Shown: piece after piece, positions 4,327 to 43,345 of the stretch | Numbering within the stretch: the stretch's first letter is position 1 | How the letters are laid out: each line of letters starts with the position of its first letter | NCBI GenBank assembly: GCA_016926735.1 | Contig: JAFGOA010000198.1 | Location: 1 to 43,411, forward strand | From: Promethearchaeota archaeon | Lineage (GTDB): Archaea; Asgardarchaeota; Lokiarchaeia; Sigyniarchaeales; SOKP01 | Length of the DNA stretch: 43,411 bases | Reading direction: 5' to 3' | The notes under the pieces: model-generated | The model's input: the letters and a program-made list of their open reading frames with translations, nothing else | Told to the model about the DNA's origin: nothing | The model's database searches: none | Translations under genes and position numbers: made by a program

Positions 4327-4563
4327 TTTTTTAAAATTCTATATCCACAATAATTTTTAATATGAAAGCAATAGATTAAATTATTAGTTTTAACACTATC
4401 TCTTTTTTTTCAAATAATTATTAATATCAATAAATAGATCATACTTTTATTATCAAATTTTAGAGTCACAAATTATGATAGTGAGACTTAAATAATAGAA
4501 ATACGATATTATTTTTGAAAAATTTTCTTTTTTTAAATAATTCAAAAGGAATAAATATTAACA

Positions 4564-5121
4564 ATGAGCTCAAATGATCTTTTATTAATTAAGAAATATG
4601 AAGAAGAGACGGGAAAAAAGGCTATTCTTAAAGGAAAAGAAACCAAGATTTATTTAAAATGGAAGGATGAGCAACAGAAAATAGAACATAATATTAATGA
4701 TAATTCTCCATCTTCTCTTTCAAATTCTATGGATTCACCGTCATTTTTAGAAATTCAAAAAGAAATTAAACAATTATCTGAAAAAATCAATTCATTTGAT
4801 TCAAGATTAAGAATTATTGAAGAGAAGCTTGCTAATGATAATGAAATGCATTTTATCAAAGAAATTTCAATAGATATATTACTCCAAACAATTAAAGACA
4901 TCTATAATTCATCAGCAAAATTAATTGGAGATTTCGTACATCTATCAACTATAATCCAAAAATTAAAAAAAAGCTTTTATTGGTCAAATGAAAAAATTCA
5001 GAAAGAAATTTTTCAACTTTTTGAGGATGGTAAAATTCAATTATTTCCTGGAAAGACTCTTGATGATGTACCTTTTATTAAAAATGGTAAATCATACGCT
5101 TGGTTTAAAATAACAGATTAG
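4564..5121 (+). CDS. Hypothetical protein, coiled coil plus winged-helix-like C-terminus
   Basis: A 185-residue soluble protein I do not recognise. Residues 1-35 form a basic block (KKYEEETGKKAILKGKE). A Ser/Asn-rich linker follows (about 45-60), then a predicted coiled coil (about 62-95, heptad-like EIQKEIKQLSEKI). The C-terminal 85 residues alternate helices and end in a strand pair around a KNGKSYAWFKI segment, which resembles the wing of a winged-helix domain. A DNA-binding or regulatory role is possible but is inference only. It is flanked by 237 bp of AT-rich intergenic DNA upstream and followed by a small coiled-coil gene on the same strand. Confidence 0.6.
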   Translation: MSSNDLLLIKKYEEETGKKAILKGKETKIYLKWKDEQQKIEHNINDNSPSSLSNSMDSPSFLEIQKEIKQLSEKINSFDSRLRIIEEKLANDNEMHFIKEISIDILLQTIKDIYNSSAKLIGDFVHLSTIIQKLKKSFYWSNEKIQKEIFQLFEDGKIQLFPGKTLDDVPFIKNGKSYAWFKITD

Positions 5122-5182
5122 AAATTTCATTATTTTTAAAATATATTTTTGAAAAAATCAATTTAATATTTTCATCTTAACC

Positions 5183-5190
5183 TATAAATA
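5183..5190 (+). promoter_or_regulatory. Candidate archaeal TATA box for the small coiled-coil gene
   Basis: TATAAATA preceded by CC, about 74 bp before the ATG at 5257. It would place transcription start near 5213-5217 and leave a 40-nt leader that contains the GGTG ribosome site. The motif is easy to find by chance in DNA this AT-rich, so this is a candidate only. Confidence 0.35.
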
Positions 5191-5256
5191 ACAAAAAAGA
5201 ATTAATATATTGTAAATTTATTAAAAAATACATTTTAATAATTATAGGTGAAAAAA

Positions 5257-5466
5257 ATGAGTGTTGAAAAACTCGAAAAGCAAATCGATGATTTGATGGA
5301 TAAAAGAGATAAACTCGAAGAAAAATGTGATACTCTTCCAGAATGTGAAAAAGACGATGGATGTGAAACTTGTAAAGTCTTTGCTGAGATCGAAAAACTT
5401 GATGAAGAGATTGAAAAGTTAGAGGAAAAGTTGGATGAATTAATTGGATCTGATGATGAAGATTAA
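5257..5466 (+). CDS. Small acidic Cys-containing coiled-coil protein
   Basis: A 69-residue protein starting MSVEKLEKQIDDLMDK. I chose the ATG at 5257 rather than the GTG at 5248, because that GTG lies inside the ribosome-binding sequence (AGGTG, six to seven bases before the ATG). The chain is almost wholly helical and charged, with two heptad stretches separated by a central loop containing four cysteines (CDTLPEC and GCETC). Paired CxxC-like cysteines flanked by helices would suit a helical hairpin clamped by a metal ion or disulfides; this is inference. It ends in an acidic tail (DDED). Family not recognised. It sits convergent with the acyl-CoA dehydrogenase gene. Confidence 0.6.
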   Translation: MSVEKLEKQIDDLMDKRDKLEEKCDTLPECEKDDGCETCKVFAEIEKLDEEIEKLEEKLDELIGSDDED

Positions 5467-5638
5467 TTAATCTGCTTTTATATATTAAAAAACTTAACAA
5501 GTATTTTCTTTTAATTTATTATTTATTTTCGCTTTATATTCTTATTCTTTACTATTTAATTTACAATTATTGGAAAATTAACTTAAAATAAAAGAAAAAG
5601 ATAGAATAAAAAAATTAATTGTTTAATAGTACTTAATT

Positions 5639-28833: not shown

Positions 28834-30657
28834 TTACTTCAATATTTCTAGAATTTTTTGAGCTAAATTTTTTCCAACAATCTCAGAAATGTCTTGAAAG
28901 GAAGCTTTTTTAATACCTTCAATGCTACCAAACTTATTAAAAAGCATATTTCTTTTGGCAGGTCCTATTCCCTTAATATTTTCAAGAATTGATTTAGATA
29001 TTCTTTTTTCTCTTTGTTTTTTATGTAATCTCACAGCAAATCTATGTGCCTCATCTCTGATATGTTGAAATAGTCTTAAAATTGATGAATTATTCGGTAA
29101 TCTTATAGATTCTTTTTGATTTAATATGAAAATCTCTTCTAATCTTTTAGCTAAACTTATTATTGGAATCTCAAGACCTAAATCTTCAATAATTTTACCC
29201 GCAGCATTTAATTGTCCTTTACCTCCATCAATTAAAATTAAATCTGGTAAAACACCATTTCTTTTCATAATTGAACTATATCTTCTTTTAATAACTTCTT
29301 TCATCATTCCTACATCATCAGGAGTTGATTTTGATTTAATTTTATAATGTCGATATTTTTGATTAAATGGTCTACCTTCAAGAAAATACACCATAGAACC
29401 AGTTGCATCCTTACCCTCTATATTTGAAATATCAAATCCTTCAATTATTCGAGGTATAGTTGGTAAATCTAATAAAACTTTGATTTCCTCTAATACTCTC
29501 TCTTGATCTAATCCTTCTTTTTGTTTAATCTCTTCTATTTGTATTTGTTGGAAAACCATAACTTTAGCATTTTTAAATGCGATTTTTAGAAGAGCCTGTT
29601 CATTATAATCAATTGGAGCTCTAATCTTGATGTTTTCTTTTTTATTTTTAAGAATATCATTTAATAAAACAAAATTATCTGAAAATTGAGGTATTACGAT
29701 AATGTCTGGTATACTATATGAAAGATCTTGATAATATTGAACTAAAAGAGATATTAATAACTCTTTTTTTTTTACTATTTTATCATTTAGATCAATATTA
29801 AATTGACTTTTTTTCATTATTTTACCTTCTTGTATATGAATTATTATCAGTGAAAAAAAGTTTTTTTCACTATAATATTGAACTATGTCTTTACTTTGCT
29901 CTTCATAAAGAATTACATGCTGCTTAATTGTTGAGTTTTCAATAGCATCTAATTTATCTCTCCAAAAAGAAGCAGCTTCATATTTCTGAGATTTTGCCGC
30001 ATTTTCCATATTATTTTTGATTTGCTTTTTTAGATCTGTAGTTTTACCATCTAAAAACAGGTCAATTTTTTTTATATTTTCAAGATAATCCTCTTTACTT
30101 ATTATACCAATGCAAGGACCCAGGCATAGTTTTAACTGATAATAAAGGCAATGTTTCTTCCGTTGTTTTATTTTATTCTTACAAGAACAAAAAGGGAATA
30201 TTTTTCTTAAATCTCTTAAGATTCTTTGAATATTTCCTTTATCGGTATATGGTCCAAAGAATTTATTTTTTTGATTAAAATGATGAGGGTTTCTTATAAT
30301 TAGAACTCTTGGGAATTCTTCTGAATATGTAATCATAACCCAAGGATATGTTTTTGAATCTCGCATTAAAACATTAAAAGGAGGGCGATGCTTCTTAATT
30401 AAGATATTTTCTAGTATTAATGCTTCTTTTTCATTTTCTGTTACTATAAAATCAATAGAATAAATCTTACTAACTAAATCCTTTATTTTTTCTCCATAAT
30501 AAGGATCACTAAAAGATGTTTTATTAAAATATTGTGCTACTCTTTTTTTAAGACTAATGGCTTTACCGATATAAATAATAATTCCATTTTCATCTTTAAA
30601 TTGATATATTCCTGGTTCATTTGGTAAACTTTTTCTTTCTAAATCTAAATTATTCAT
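28834..30657 (-). CDS. uvrC: Excinuclease ABC subunit C (UvrC)
   Basis: A 607-residue protein with the full UvrC layout: an N-terminal GIY-YIG nuclease (PGIYQFKDENGIIIYIGKA, 15-33) that makes the 3' incision; a cysteine cluster (CSCKNK, CLYYQLKLCLGPC) near 157-181; a UVR motif (MENAAKSQKYEAASFWRDKL) near 212-231; an RNase H-like domain for the 5' incision (GFDISNIEGKDATGSMVYF, LILIDGGKGQL); and C-terminal helix-hairpin-helix motifs (LENIKGIGPAKRNMLFNKFGS). Length is normal for the family. UvrABC is a bacterial-type repair system found in part of the Archaea through transfer. uvrA and uvrB are not in this window. It is convergent with the lysW gene. Confidence 0.96.
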   Translation of the reverse strand: MNNLDLERKSLPNEPGIYQFKDENGIIIYIGKAISLKKRVAQYFNKTSFSDPYYGEKIKDLVSKIYSIDFIVTENEKEALILENILIKKHRPPFNVLMRDSKTYPWVMITYSEEFPRVLIIRNPHHFNQKNKFFGPYTDKGNIQRILRDLRKIFPFCSCKNKIKQRKKHCLYYQLKLCLGPCIGIISKEDYLENIKKIDLFLDGKTTDLKKQIKNNMENAAKSQKYEAASFWRDKLDAIENSTIKQHVILYEEQSKDIVQYYSEKNFFSLIIIHIQEGKIMKKSQFNIDLNDKIVKKKELLISLLVQYYQDLSYSIPDIIVIPQFSDNFVLLNDILKNKKENIKIRAPIDYNEQALLKIAFKNAKVMVFQQIQIEEIKQKEGLDQERVLEEIKVLLDLPTIPRIIEGFDISNIEGKDATGSMVYFLEGRPFNQKYRHYKIKSKSTPDDVGMMKEVIKRRYSSIMKRNGVLPDLILIDGGKGQLNAAGKIIEDLGLEIPIISLAKRLEEIFILNQKESIRLPNNSSILRLFQHIRDEAHRFAVRLHKKQREKRISKSILENIKGIGPAKRNMLFNKFGSIEGIKKASFQDISEIVGKNLAQKILEILK

Positions 30658-33777: not shown

Positions 33778-35055
33778 TTATTTTTTCCATTTTTTCAATG
33801 CTGCTTTAAGCTCTGAATTAGTTTTTGCTCTCTCTTCTAAAGTAAAACCATCTATTATTGCATTTACAGCTTGTCTAATTGCTGAAGCACCTGCTAGAGT
33901 TCCATTAGGATGACCATGACAACCCCCTCCAAATTGATATACCATATCAATCCCTAATAAATCAATTAACTTTGGAATATGTAATGGACTTAAACCTCCT
34001 GAAGCTACTGGTAGCGTTGGTTTTATATGATCCCATTCTTGAGAGAGCATAGTTAAATTATTATCCTCAATTGAATTTTTTGTTAGCATTTCATTAATTT
34101 CTAATACTTCTTGTTTATCTCCTTCCATCTTTCCAACTATTGTTCCTGTATGTAATTGATCCATTCCAATTAGACGCATTAATTTCGCTATTGATAACAT
34201 TGTCATTCCATGTTTTTTATTTCTAGTTAGAGCAGCATGCATTGCTCTATGAGCATGAATTACAATATTTTTATTATCTAAATACGTCCTTAATTCTTGT
34301 AAAGCGGAGTAACCTACCGTGATTATATCTACCATAATATATTCTCCACCATAATCTATAACAAAATTAGCTCTTTTTTTCATTAATTCTATTGGTGCCG
34401 TTATATTAGGCATATATATTTTTTTTTCTCCAGTTTTTTCTTCAATTTTATTTCTTACCTTAAAAGTTTCCTCAATTCTTTTTTTAAACTTATTAAAGAC
34501 CATGCTTGTTAAATTTTCATCATCTTTTACAATATCTAATCCACCTAACCATGCTTCTCCACAAACATTAGCATGTTCGATTTCATTTAACCCCACTTTT
34601 GGTTTAACAATTGTACCTAATAATGGTCTTTTTCTAACCTTAGTAAGCTGTCTTATACCCTCTGTACCAAATTTAGGTCCCTTATACATATCTATAAAAT
34701 CCTTTGGGAAGGTTATATCTAATAATCTTAAGTTATCCAATGCTTTCATACCATAAATATTTCCAGCAATGGCGCTAAGAATTTGTGATATATTATTTAA
34801 TTCAAATAAATCTTTATTATAAGCAATCTTAGTAATTCCATTAGGCTCATCAATATAGAAAATTGAAGGTTTCAATCTATTAGCAATTTCTGCAGACATT
34901 GTAACAATATCTGTCCAAGTACCGATTGAACTTTCTTTAGCTATTTCTGTACAAGCATTTTGAAAATCTTTACAATCTTCTGATTTTTCTACATAATACA
35001 TAACAATAAGGTCATTATCATCAGGTATATAGTCCAAATCAATATAATCTACCAT
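33778..35055 (-). CDS. rbcL: RuBisCO large subunit, archaeal form III
   Basis: A 425-residue RuBisCO. Spinach catalytic positions can be matched: E41, T46, W47 (ESSIGTW), N99 (AGNIYG), K151 and K153 (GTIVKPKVGL), carbamylated K177 with D179 and E180 (GGLDIVKDDEN), H269-R270 (HAHRAMHA), H302 (LHTGTIVGK), loop 6 K309, S352 (SGGLS) and the GGG at 376-378. No essential residue is missing, so this is a true carboxylase and not a form IV RuBisCO-like protein. Length and sequence flavour fit form III. With the R15P isomerase at 31401 it can act in AMP salvage, giving 3-phosphoglycerate from ribulose bisphosphate. There is no small subunit. AAAAGGA precedes the ATG. Divergent from the eL22 gene. Confidence 0.95.
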   Translation of the reverse strand: MVDYIDLDYIPDDNDLIVMYYVEKSEDCKDFQNACTEIAKESSIGTWTDIVTMSAEIANRLKPSIFYIDEPNGITKIAYNKDLFELNNISQILSAIAGNIYGMKALDNLRLLDITFPKDFIDMYKGPKFGTEGIRQLTKVRKRPLLGTIVKPKVGLNEIEHANVCGEAWLGGLDIVKDDENLTSMVFNKFKKRIEETFKVRNKIEEKTGEKKIYMPNITAPIELMKKRANFVIDYGGEYIMVDIITVGYSALQELRTYLDNKNIVIHAHRAMHAALTRNKKHGMTMLSIAKLMRLIGMDQLHTGTIVGKMEGDKQEVLEINEMLTKNSIEDNNLTMLSQEWDHIKPTLPVASGGLSPLHIPKLIDLLGIDMVYQFGGGCHGHPNGTLAGASAIRQAVNAIIDGFTLEERAKTNSELKAALKKWKK

Positions 35056-36580: not shown

Positions 36581-36961
36581 ATAGAATTTTGTGATGAGTG
36601 TGGAGGACTTATGATTCCCTCAAAAGAAAAAGGAAAAAAAATATTTAAATGTAAATGCGGTGCTTCAAAAATATTTACTGAAAGTAGATCTAATGCATAT
36701 AAGATTCATACTAAAATAAAACACTCCTATAGAGAAGAAATATCAAATACAAAAGATATAATAAAGTGGAAAGATGAGAATCTAAAAAGCTCAATTAAAG
36801 ATTTTAAATGTAGAAATTGTGGATATGATAAAGCTCAGTTAGAGACACGTCAAACAAGAAGCGCAGATGAAGGTATGACAATTTAAGATATTTAATTTTA
36901 AATCATAAGACATTTTATCATCTGCCTAAAATGTGGAAAAATGAGAAAGATCGGTAGTTAA
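36581..36961 (+). pseudogene. Interrupted TFS-like transcription factor (TFIIS/RPB9-type zinc ribbons)
   Basis: The intact open frame, 36611-36886, encodes 91 residues, but homology reaches further both ways. Upstream the frame continues as EFCDECGGL in front of MIPSKEKGKKIFKCKCG, completing the N-terminal zinc ribbon of archaeal TFS. The codon before it is ATA (36581-36583), seven bases after a GGTG ribosome site, where an ATG is expected. Downstream, the C-terminal ribbon starts KCRNCG, continues RQTRSADEGMT with the catalytic DE pair, then hits TAA at 36884. After about 30 bases the same frame resumes with HFIICLKCGKMRKIGS and a stop at 36959-36961. Removing 30 nt gives a normal-length TFS, though with the usual Trp-Arg end degenerate. 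It is either a decaying gene or one needing unusual expression. Confidence 0.75.
36881..36910 (+). other. 30-nt AT-rich interruption in the TFS-like gene
   Basis: A segment made almost only of A and T, containing the premature TAA, lying between ATG-ACA and CAT-TTT. Its removal joins DEGMT to HFIICLKCG in frame and restores the exact spacing of the family (DE, three residues, one residue, F, two residues, C). Exact borders are ambiguous by several bases. GACA occurs at both ends (36877-36880 and 36909-36912). Flanking sequences GCAGATGA (36863-36870) and TCATCTGC (36918-36925) are perfect reverse complements. Confidence 0.6.
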
Positions 36962-41418: not shown

Positions 41419-41748
41419 TTGATTGTATTATTCATTGATAATATCGAGGACTTCATAATTTTTTTAGAAAAAAGAATAATGAATGAGATTTTTTTTGAAT
41501 CTAAACAAATTGATAATAAAAATGATCTAACTGCTGAAATTGAGATAGAAATTATTTTACATTTTCTTTCTAAAGTAGCAGAATCTATTGTTTTATATGA
41601 AACTAAAATTGATATGAGTAAATTTGATAACTCTTTTGATGAAGAGAAGGTGATAAGTGAAATACAAAAAATTTTTAAAAAAGTAGATCCTTCAATTAAA
41701 CTTATAAAAGGTAAAATTAGAGAAATTTATCTTTCTTATTCTTTATAA
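41419..41748 (+). CDS. Hypothetical small protein
   Basis: A 109-residue acidic protein if started at TTG 41419, or about 89 residues if started at the in-frame ATG at 41479 (MNEIFFESKQIDNKND). The latter looks more natural, although neither has a clear ribosome site. The core is helical (AEIEIEIILHFLSKVAESIVLYE) with a C-terminal strand-helix-strand (PSIKLIKGKIREIYLSYSL). Family not recognised. It overlaps the end of the aIF2-gamma gene on the other strand by 13 bp, and follows the surface protein gene closely. Confidence 0.5.
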   Translation: MIVLFIDNIEDFIIFLEKRIMNEIFFESKQIDNKNDLTAEIEIEIILHFLSKVAESIVLYETKIDMSKFDNSFDEEKVISEIQKIFKKVDPSIKLIKGKIREIYLSYSL

Positions 41749-42938
41749 TTAACTCTTTTTCCATATCCAATTAATCTAAATCTTCTATTAATAATTCTTG
41801 ATATTGCAAATATAAAATTTTCAGGAACACAAACAGGTGGATTTAGACTTATTTGATATGAATCTTTTAGAATTTTAATAACTGTTCCTCCCGTTTTTTG
41901 AGTTCCTACAACCATAAGTAATTTTTCTCCATGTTTTAAACTATGTACTTTTATCATTTCTTCAGAACCAATAACACGATCTAGTAGATTGACATTTAAC
42001 TCAATTTCACTATAGATCTCGGGTAATGTGTCTAATCTACCCGTAAGATGGCCAATTAATGCATCTCCTTTAGTTAATGCAGGATCTAATTTTGTTCCGA
42101 TCCCAATTAATCCTCCGGGTTTTGCATTATCTAAAAAATTACTACCTTGACTTAAACTAACAATTGTGGATTTAATTGGTATATAACCTTCTTTCACTTT
42201 TAATCCTGGTCGAATTTCAATTTGTTCTCCTACAGAAATTTTACCTTTTAAAACTGATCCCCCAATTACACCACCAACCAATTTTTCAATTTTAGTTCCT
42301 GGTTTATTTACATCAAAAGATCTTGCTATTAAAAATTGAAAATCCTCATTTTCATCTGAAATTTGTGTAGGAATATACTCTTCGAATGCCTCCACAACTA
42401 ATTCAATATTTGCGCTAAAGACAGCAGAAATTGGGATAATAGGTGCATTTTCTGCAACAGTTCCCTTAACAAATTCTTTGATTTCTTTATAATTTTCCAG
42501 AGCTTCTTCTTTAGTAACAGCATCAATTTTATTTTGGATAATTATTATATTTTTTATTCCAGCAATATTTAAAGCGGCTAAATGTTCTCTCGTTTGAGGT
42601 TGAGGACAAGTTTCATCAGCAGCAATTAATAAACAAGCACCATCCATAAGAGAAGCACCACTCAACATCGTAGCCATTAATATTTCGTGACCTGGTGCAT
42701 CAACAAATGAAATATTTCTTTTAAATTTTAATTGTCCTTTACAAATTAAACATCTAAATCTGGGTTCTCCGTTTTTTCTTAGACTATCTACCATATGCAA
42801 GGTTGTGTATTGCTTACATTCAGGGCAATACAATATTGTTGTGTTAGAATATCCCAATTTAATTGAAATTCCTCTTTCTTGCTCTTCTGAATGTCTATCA
42901 GTCCAATCTCCAGTTAAAGCTTTGACCAACGTGGTCTT
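41736..42938 (-). CDS. eif2g: Translation initiation factor aIF2-gamma, main part (lacks G1 start)
   Basis: Homology to aIF2-gamma begins with KTTLVKALTGDWTDRHSEE at 42938 and continues to the normal C-terminus. Visible are switch I, the zinc knuckle (CPECKQYTTL ... CLICKG), G3 DAPGHE, G4 NKID, the ISA region of G5, and domains II and III (GGVIGGSVLKGKI, KPGGLIGIGTKLDP). The factor carries Met-tRNA to the ribosome as part of aIF2. Read alone, the frame can only begin at TTG 42929, after the P-loop lysine, and has no ribosome site there, so it could not make a working GTPase. The missing GLVGHVDHG lies 29 bases upstream in another frame (42947-43345). It may be expressed as one 526-residue protein if the 29 nt are removed. 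Confidence 0.93.
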   Translation of the reverse strand, partial: KTTLVKALTGDWTDRHSEEQERGISIKLGYSNTTILYCPECKQYTTLHMVDSLRKNGEPRFRCLICKGQLKFKRNISFVDAPGHEILMATMLSGASLMDGACLLIAADETCPQPQTREHLAALNIAGIKNIIIIQNKIDAVTKEEALENYKEIKEFVKGTVAENAPIIPISAVFSANIELVVEAFEEYIPTQISDENEDFQFLIARSFDVNKPGTKIEKLVGGVIGGSVLKGKISVGEQIEIRPGLKVKEGYIPIKSTIVSLSQGSNFLDNAKPGGLIGIGTKLDPALTKGDALIGHLTGRLDTLPEIYSEIELNVNLLDRVIGSEEMIKVHSLKHGEKLLMVVGTQKTGGTVIKILKDSYQISLNPPVCVPENFIFAISRIINRRFRLIGYGKRVNYKE

Positions 42939-42967
42939 TATGTGTATTATTTATCTAAATAATTCAT
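42939..42967 (-). other. 29-nt AT-rich interruption inside the aIF2-gamma P-loop
   Basis: On the minus strand the gene reads GGTCACGTGGATCATGGA (GHVDHG), then 29 bases rich in A and T with a stop (TAA), then AAGACCACGTTGGTC (KTTLV). Taking out the 29 bases restores GHVDHGKTTLV exactly. The segment includes a hairpin ATTATTT-AGAT-AAATAAT (7 bp). ACGTGG before and CCACGT after it are complementary. The borders can slide by one or two A residues. Confidence 0.85.
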
Positions 42968-43345
42968 TCCATGATCCACGTGACCAACAAGCCCTATATT
43001 GCATTCTGCTTGTTTTTTAATAATTTCTTTAAATGCTTTTATTGATATCTCGTCTTTAGCAGGTCTTTTTTTAATTTCTTTGCTAGGACTCTCTATTGTT
43101 GGACCCTCATTTATTTTTTCCCCGATATCTACTGAAATTGATTCTGTGTCAGGAGTAACAATGACACCTTCTAATAATTTTTTTGCCTCATCAATATATC
43201 GCAACGCTGTAGACTCTCCTATTCCTTTAACTTTTAAAAGATCCTGTAAATTGATATTTGCAATCTTTTCAACACTATCTATTCCAACTGATCTCATTCT
43301 CTCTGCTGTTGCAGATCCAATTCCTTTAATTTTTTCTAAATCCAT
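42947..43345 (-). CDS. HhH extension plus start of aIF2-gamma GTPase domain (5' part of interrupted gene)
   Basis: A 132-codon frame. Residues 1-60 hold two helix-hairpin-helix motifs (LEKIKGIGSATAERMRSVG and LLKVKGIGESTALRYIDEA), a tandem usually found in DNA- or RNA-binding proteins. A polar, acidic linker follows (about 62-105), then KEIIKKQAECNIGLVGHVDHG, which is the authentic N-terminus of an aIF2-gamma GTPase domain up to the glycine before the P-loop lysine. Six alien residues (MNYLDK) and a stop come next. Canonical aIF2-gamma is about 410 residues and lacks this HhH region, so the complete protein would be a fusion with an extra 110 residues. ATG 43345 is the only good start. Confidence 0.82.
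   Translation of the reverse strand: MDLEKIKGIGSATAERMRSVGIDSVEKIANINLQDLLKVKGIGESTALRYIDEAKKLLEGVIVTPDTESISVDIGEKINEGPTIESPSKEIKKRPAKDEISIKAFKEIIKKQAECNIGLVGHVDHGMNYLDK

Follow-up and report, generated by a model that had tools for sequence, protein, structure and literature searches.

Can the TFS gene at positions 36581-36961 (+) of the window (the 43,411-nt stretch of DNA analysed here) still yield a complete protein when stop codons interrupt its reading frame? The window was one contig of a 3.88-Mb, 99% complete genome (G000), and Lokiarchaeota were its closest named relatives. On the plus strand, the TFS frame ran through RQTRSADEGMTI, a stop, DI, a stop, F, a stop and IIRHFIICLKCGKMRKIGS to a final stop, and the interruption with its stop codons occupied positions 36880-36909. 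As the sequence-only reading of this DNA had anticipated, the interruption was in frame and 30 nt long, and its deletion fused DEGMT with HFIICLKCGK (DEGMTHFIICLK across the predicted exon join) to give a 116-aa protein. Both Pfam zinc-ribbon models, for the Rpb9-type N ribbon and the TFIIS-type C ribbon with its RSADEGMT loop, scored the spliced protein over cut-off, and the TFIIS ribbon score rose from 33.7 bits unspliced to 50.4 bits after in silico splicing. The match to NCBIfam TFS_arch was 45.7 bits, under the equivalog cut-off of 64.75. That reading had wavered between a removable insert and a decaying gene. The first part held: the 30-nt segment is very probably an archaeal bulge-helix-bulge (BHB) intron in the pre-mRNA, which splicing endonuclease would remove and whose flanking exons would be joined. 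Decay was refuted by dN/dS and by conserved, covarying helices. The features of the TFS gene, and of a second interrupted gene in the same window, are as follows.

36581-36961 (+): TFS gene
36581-36879 (+): TFS exon 1, with ATA start; covers the N-terminal zinc ribbon (Rpb9-type) and the beginning of the TFIIS-type one, and ends ...DEG-M-AC
36863-36870 (+): GCAGATGA, 5' arm of the outer exonic helix
36874-36877 (+): TATG, the exon side of central helix H (4 bp) of the BHB
36878-36880 (+): 5' bulge A-C^A, predicted cut after 36879; unique register, conserved in 6 genomes
36880-36909 (+): predicted TFS BHB intron, 30 nt, with in-frame TAA stops
36881-36903 (+): intron hairpin h2, 9 bp, ATTTAAGAT (36881-36889) with ATTTTAAAT (36895-36903)
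36904-36907 (+): CATA, H', the intron side of the central helix of the BHB
36908-36910 (+): 3' bulge A-G^A, predicted cut after 36909
36910-36961 (+): TFS exon 2 (T-HFIICLKCGKMRKIGS-stop)
36918-36925 (+): TCATCTGC, 3' arm of the outer exonic helix
42967-43345 (-): aIF2-gamma exon 1, comprising an N-terminal extension, then the G domain as far as GHVDHG and the first base of Lys
42938-42966 (-): predicted aIF2-gamma BHB intron, 29 nt, in the P-loop GHVDHG/KTTL
41736-42937 (-): aIF2-gamma exon 2 (KTTLVKALTGDWTD...)

The predicted TFS structure paired TATG of the exon with CATA of the intron over 4 bp, with 3-nt bulges ACA and AGA and an h2 hairpin of 9 bp, and the central helix was 3-4 bp in every other copy of the TFS and aIF2-gamma introns (only 3 of 4 pairs formed in the TFS introns of G044 and G033). 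Archaeal BHB substrates are cut between the 2nd and 3rd bulge residues (PMC2738675), and cuts at these positions yielded MTHF, the sequence of intact orthologues, in all six TFS carriers. The register was the only one with a BHB structure among shifts of -8 to +8 in G000, and it was unique among shifts of -6 to +6 in all six carriers (3-4 bp in H plus 9-10 bp in h2). Shuffled introns did as well as the real one in 19 of 200,000 trials for G000 and 1 of 200,000 for the same-genus genome G001 (MAG bin106, contig JAGXOA010000156.1, L091), frequencies whose significance is overstated by sequence kinship. Across the alignment of six copies, 92% of cells were paired, vs 28-54% when the partner strand was slid, and the intron hairpin contained compensatory changes at columns 25/45 and 26/44. 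Unconstrained minimum free energy folds displayed the helix-bulge architecture for TFS in both genomes of the genus and for aIF2-gamma in L091. BHB-like geometry is common in AT-rich DNA (1054 geometries with H=4 and h2>=5 in 43 kb of this window), so the case rests on register, product and conservation. The perfect 8-bp complement reported to flank the interruption is present, GCAGATGA at 36863-36870 with TCATCTGC at 36918-36925, but both of its arms are exonic and fall outside the core BHB, made up of TATG/CATA and the intron hairpin. RNAalifold favoured pairing of column 17 with column 53 instead of 50, which leaves some doubt about where the outer helix ends. A BHB with the bulges on the wrong side of the helix was also considered and was rejected because its products were non-functional.

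A family search of 65 genomes with the TFIIS zinc-ribbon model revealed four further genomes in which the match broke off at the same position. The comparison of orthologous loci proposed earlier placed the 30-nt insert at the same TFS codon in five other Lokiarchaeota genomes (six in total, from three genera), namely G001, with 30 nt at the same site as in G000, and G071, G044, G038 and G033, whereas 35 other TFS orthologue loci were uninterrupted and read DEGMTHF. The putative record pairings of the last four are G071 with L140 (isolate BC1), G044 with L095 (ABR06), G038 with L107 (LW30_13) and G033 with L115 (YT1_053). Recurrence of the same interruption at one codon across five further genomes excludes chance, and because the carriers are separate metagenome assemblies, assembly error is excluded as well.

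The same window contained a second gene of this kind. About 5 kb from TFS, aIF2-gamma (41736-43345, -) carried a 29-nt interruption inside its conserved P-loop, and the likeness between the two inserts that had been pointed out from the sequence was correct. An insert of 29 or 30 nt at this one site was found in 16 Lokiarchaeota sequences including the window, and 44 sequences in the comparison set were without it; the introns of L108 (9958-10020) and L111 (2494-2560) were 30 nt, in frame, and differed in hairpin sequence at the same site. In aIF2-gamma, ATGG paired with either CCAT or CUAU to form the BHB helix, and the whole structure, including its bulges and hairpin, was available in the product-restoring register in every copy, the predicted GKTT being the sequence of intact orthologues. 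Helix H formed 3 of 4 pairs in three introns (G000, L108 and L111). In the alignment, 84% of cells were paired vs 31-50% after sliding, and the covariation score was reached by none of 500 shuffles, a result whose significance related sequences overstate. One His codon has its third base in helix H, and it was CAT in 16/16 intron carriers vs 13/44 non-carriers (Fisher test, p=4.5e-7; because the sequences are related, the p-value is weakened, but the direction is unaffected); carriers and non-carriers were alike in codon use at a control His. This pattern indicates that the silent-position base of helix H at the His codon is constrained in carriers. The N-terminal extension of aIF2-gamma (42967-43345, -) resembled a helix-hairpin-helix domain, and long open frames were present there in relatives too.

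A non-exhaustive tblastn scan for split genes (175 loci plus the window, 1.6 Mb) recovered aIF2-gamma as the sole strong interruption and overlooked TFS, which has a short exon 2. A BHB/ORF scan of approximately 370 kb of the window's genome was too noisy for naming new introns. The shared motif GGTATGA..CATAAA was rejected as a splice signal because the BHB registers of the two introns differ, and in four genomes the pattern was near background apart from the known cases.

Gene decay, in which the insert killed TFS and left the downstream piece as a remnant, would explain the stop codons in the insert and an ATA where ATG is expected at the TFS start. The ATA is real, and it was common to both genomes of the genus (36581-36583, +, in the window and approximately 6092 in L062), whereas orthologues mostly started with ATG GAA TTT TGT or had a start close by or just upstream; upstream of the first zinc-ribbon cysteine, back to the nearest stop, the frame held no ATG, GTG or TTG. 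However, the accumulation of non-synonymous changes that a pseudogene would suggest was not seen between G000 and G001 (dN 0.086, dS 0.70, dN/dS about 0.12), and exon 2 had 0/17 amino-acid changes with 4 nucleotide changes. This low dN relative to dS and the identity of the exon 2 protein reject a pseudogene, and the comparison indicates that the gene, exon 2 included, is under purifying selection, so that the ATA start does not serve as a sign of decay. Nor does the missing Trp, which is usual in this TFS subfamily: the intact orthologues compared end in KIGS and a stop, as TFS does here. That six genomes keep an insert of exactly 30 nt whose helices covary also speaks against decay, as does a similar insert in aIF2-gamma, for which the genome yielded no further full-length copy scoring over the family cut-off. 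An intact TFS elsewhere had been named as a mark of a pseudogene; none was found in the G000 assembly, and G001 has one. Overall, a decaying gene is very improbable.

Programmed translational bypassing, by which ribosomes would hop over the 30 nt with the aid of the hairpin, would accommodate an in-frame insert with a stop and a hairpin. The bypassing elements of T4 gene 60 and of Magnusiomyces mitochondria (byp) are similar in size range to the TFS insert. However, in known bypassing the take-off and landing codons must match, and the two did not match in TFS (ACA vs AGA, AAA, ACT or AAT); in aIF2-gamma the last codon was GGA/GGT, but the triplet directly ahead of the resume codon did not encode Gly (ATA in most). 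A BHB register and a constrained CAT codon would also be unexpected, which leaves bypassing with as little credit as decay. Still less probable, by a small degree, is excision at the DNA level or a different RNA-processing pathway that merely resembles BHB splicing. Patchiness among close relatives would suit a mobile or excisable element, but the insert was without coding content, its hairpin covariation and its coding-strand pairing with exon bases indicate RNA, and its register matches that of the tRNA endonuclease exactly. A group I or group II intron was rejected on the size of the insert (only 29-30 nt), and the window gave no Rfam match.

If TFS carries a BHB intron, the splicing endonuclease would cut its RNA at AC^A and AG^A and the 30-nt intron would leave. 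The exons would then be joined, presumably by RtcB, to read GGT ATG AC/A CAT TTT (G-M-T-H-F), completing the TFIIS-type zinc ribbon, and the aIF2-gamma intron would be removed in the same mode, with predicted cuts at AA^T and AA^A. Cleavage and ligation in the cell, the identity of the ligase and any regulatory use are points that we infer. The G000 genome contained two splicing-endonuclease genes, encoding one catalytic and one non-catalytic subunit. The alpha subunit was closest in PDB to 3p1z/3ajv chain B and, by alignment, had the triad Tyr, His and Lys together with the KPR loop lysine, and the second subunit was without the Tyr and His; we take these residues to be the catalytic ones from the alignment. 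The pair fits, as expected, a hetero-oligomeric enzyme, putatively a heterotetramer. Hetero-oligomeric endonuclease is the type linked to cbf5 mRNA splicing (PMC2738675). RtcB was absent among the genes found in the G000 assembly and present in G001, and the lack of RtcB and of the intact TFS paralogue in G000 may reflect either assembly gaps or losses.

The distribution of the two introns was patchy. On the aIF2-gamma tree, the aIF2-gamma intron needed 10 changes, at least 6 of them on well-supported branches, and the TFS intron needed 4. The two occurred together only in the window's genus, and close pairs differed in intron presence (L118 vs L121/L126; L124 vs L116; L151 vs L114). Such patchiness fits precise loss or repeated gain, and it offers a natural system for the study of mRNA intron gain and precise loss in archaea. 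A broader scenario is speculative and rather unlikely: Lokiarchaeota might splice further mRNAs by the BHB route, with introns seated in catalytic motifs of genes essential to information processing (the aIF2-gamma P-loop and the TFS catalytic loop). Such introns would tie expression to the tRNA-splicing machinery and would be repeatedly gained and precisely lost.

The TFS intron resembles archaeal pre-tRNA introns at 37/38 in its 4-bp central helix and two 3-nt bulges, and differs in that it lies in an mRNA coding sequence and its outer helix is partly mismatched. Its site is a 7-nt loop with the predicted cut ahead of the last base, like anticodon loop positions 37/38. Short BHB introns in mRNA are of an already known kind. 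The cbf5 pre-mRNAs of Crenarchaeota carry BHB introns of 16-44 nt (Watanabe 2002; Yokobori 2009, PMC2738675), with the same features of a short intron in a protein-coding gene, 2nd^3rd bulge cuts, a hetero-oligomeric endonuclease and lineage-specific loss; the hosts here are instead TFS and aIF2-gamma, and the phylum is Asgard/Lokiarchaeota. No cbf5 intron was seen in Lokiarchaeota, cbf5 being uninterrupted in the window's genome and in 11/12 relatives searched and present only as a fragment in the other. HVO_1309 of Haloferax volcanii likewise has a BHB intron as a splicing-endonuclease substrate in an mRNA, but in the 5' UTR, and the same 2020 paper named cbf5 as the one coding-sequence example (PMC7714728). 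In the literature searched, crenarchaeal cbf5 was the only archaeal gene with confirmed BHB introns in its coding sequence. Dense introns have been reported in Asgard Atabeyarchaeia and Freyarchaeia, but for tRNA genes only (PMC11291895). A literature search, with subscription papers and preprints outside its scope, did not turn up BHB introns in protein-coding genes of Asgard archaea; within that literature, both the host genes (TFS and aIF2-gamma) and their occurrence in Asgard archaea appear to be new. Judged from its genomes, a group of Lokiarchaeota apparently splices essential mRNAs (TFS and aIF2-gamma) with the tRNA-splicing enzyme. These two further hosts are central to gene expression and come from the phylum nearest to eukaryotes, which suggests that protein-coding BHB introns are not merely a crenarchaeal oddity. 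Standard annotation splits such genes, leaving a truncated TFS and an aIF2-gamma without its P-loop, and interrupted genes of this sort can be mis-annotated or mistaken for pseudogenes.

Other genes were observed in passing. By eye, the window contained genes for a RuBisCO-like protein (33778-35055, -) and for a UvrC-like excinuclease in an archaeon (28834-30657, -). In L198, an open frame of 367 aa that contains a NurA domain (4469-5569, +) had its first ATG/GTG/TTG approximately 200 nt inside, possibly owing to another non-AUG start or to an undetected 5' interruption.
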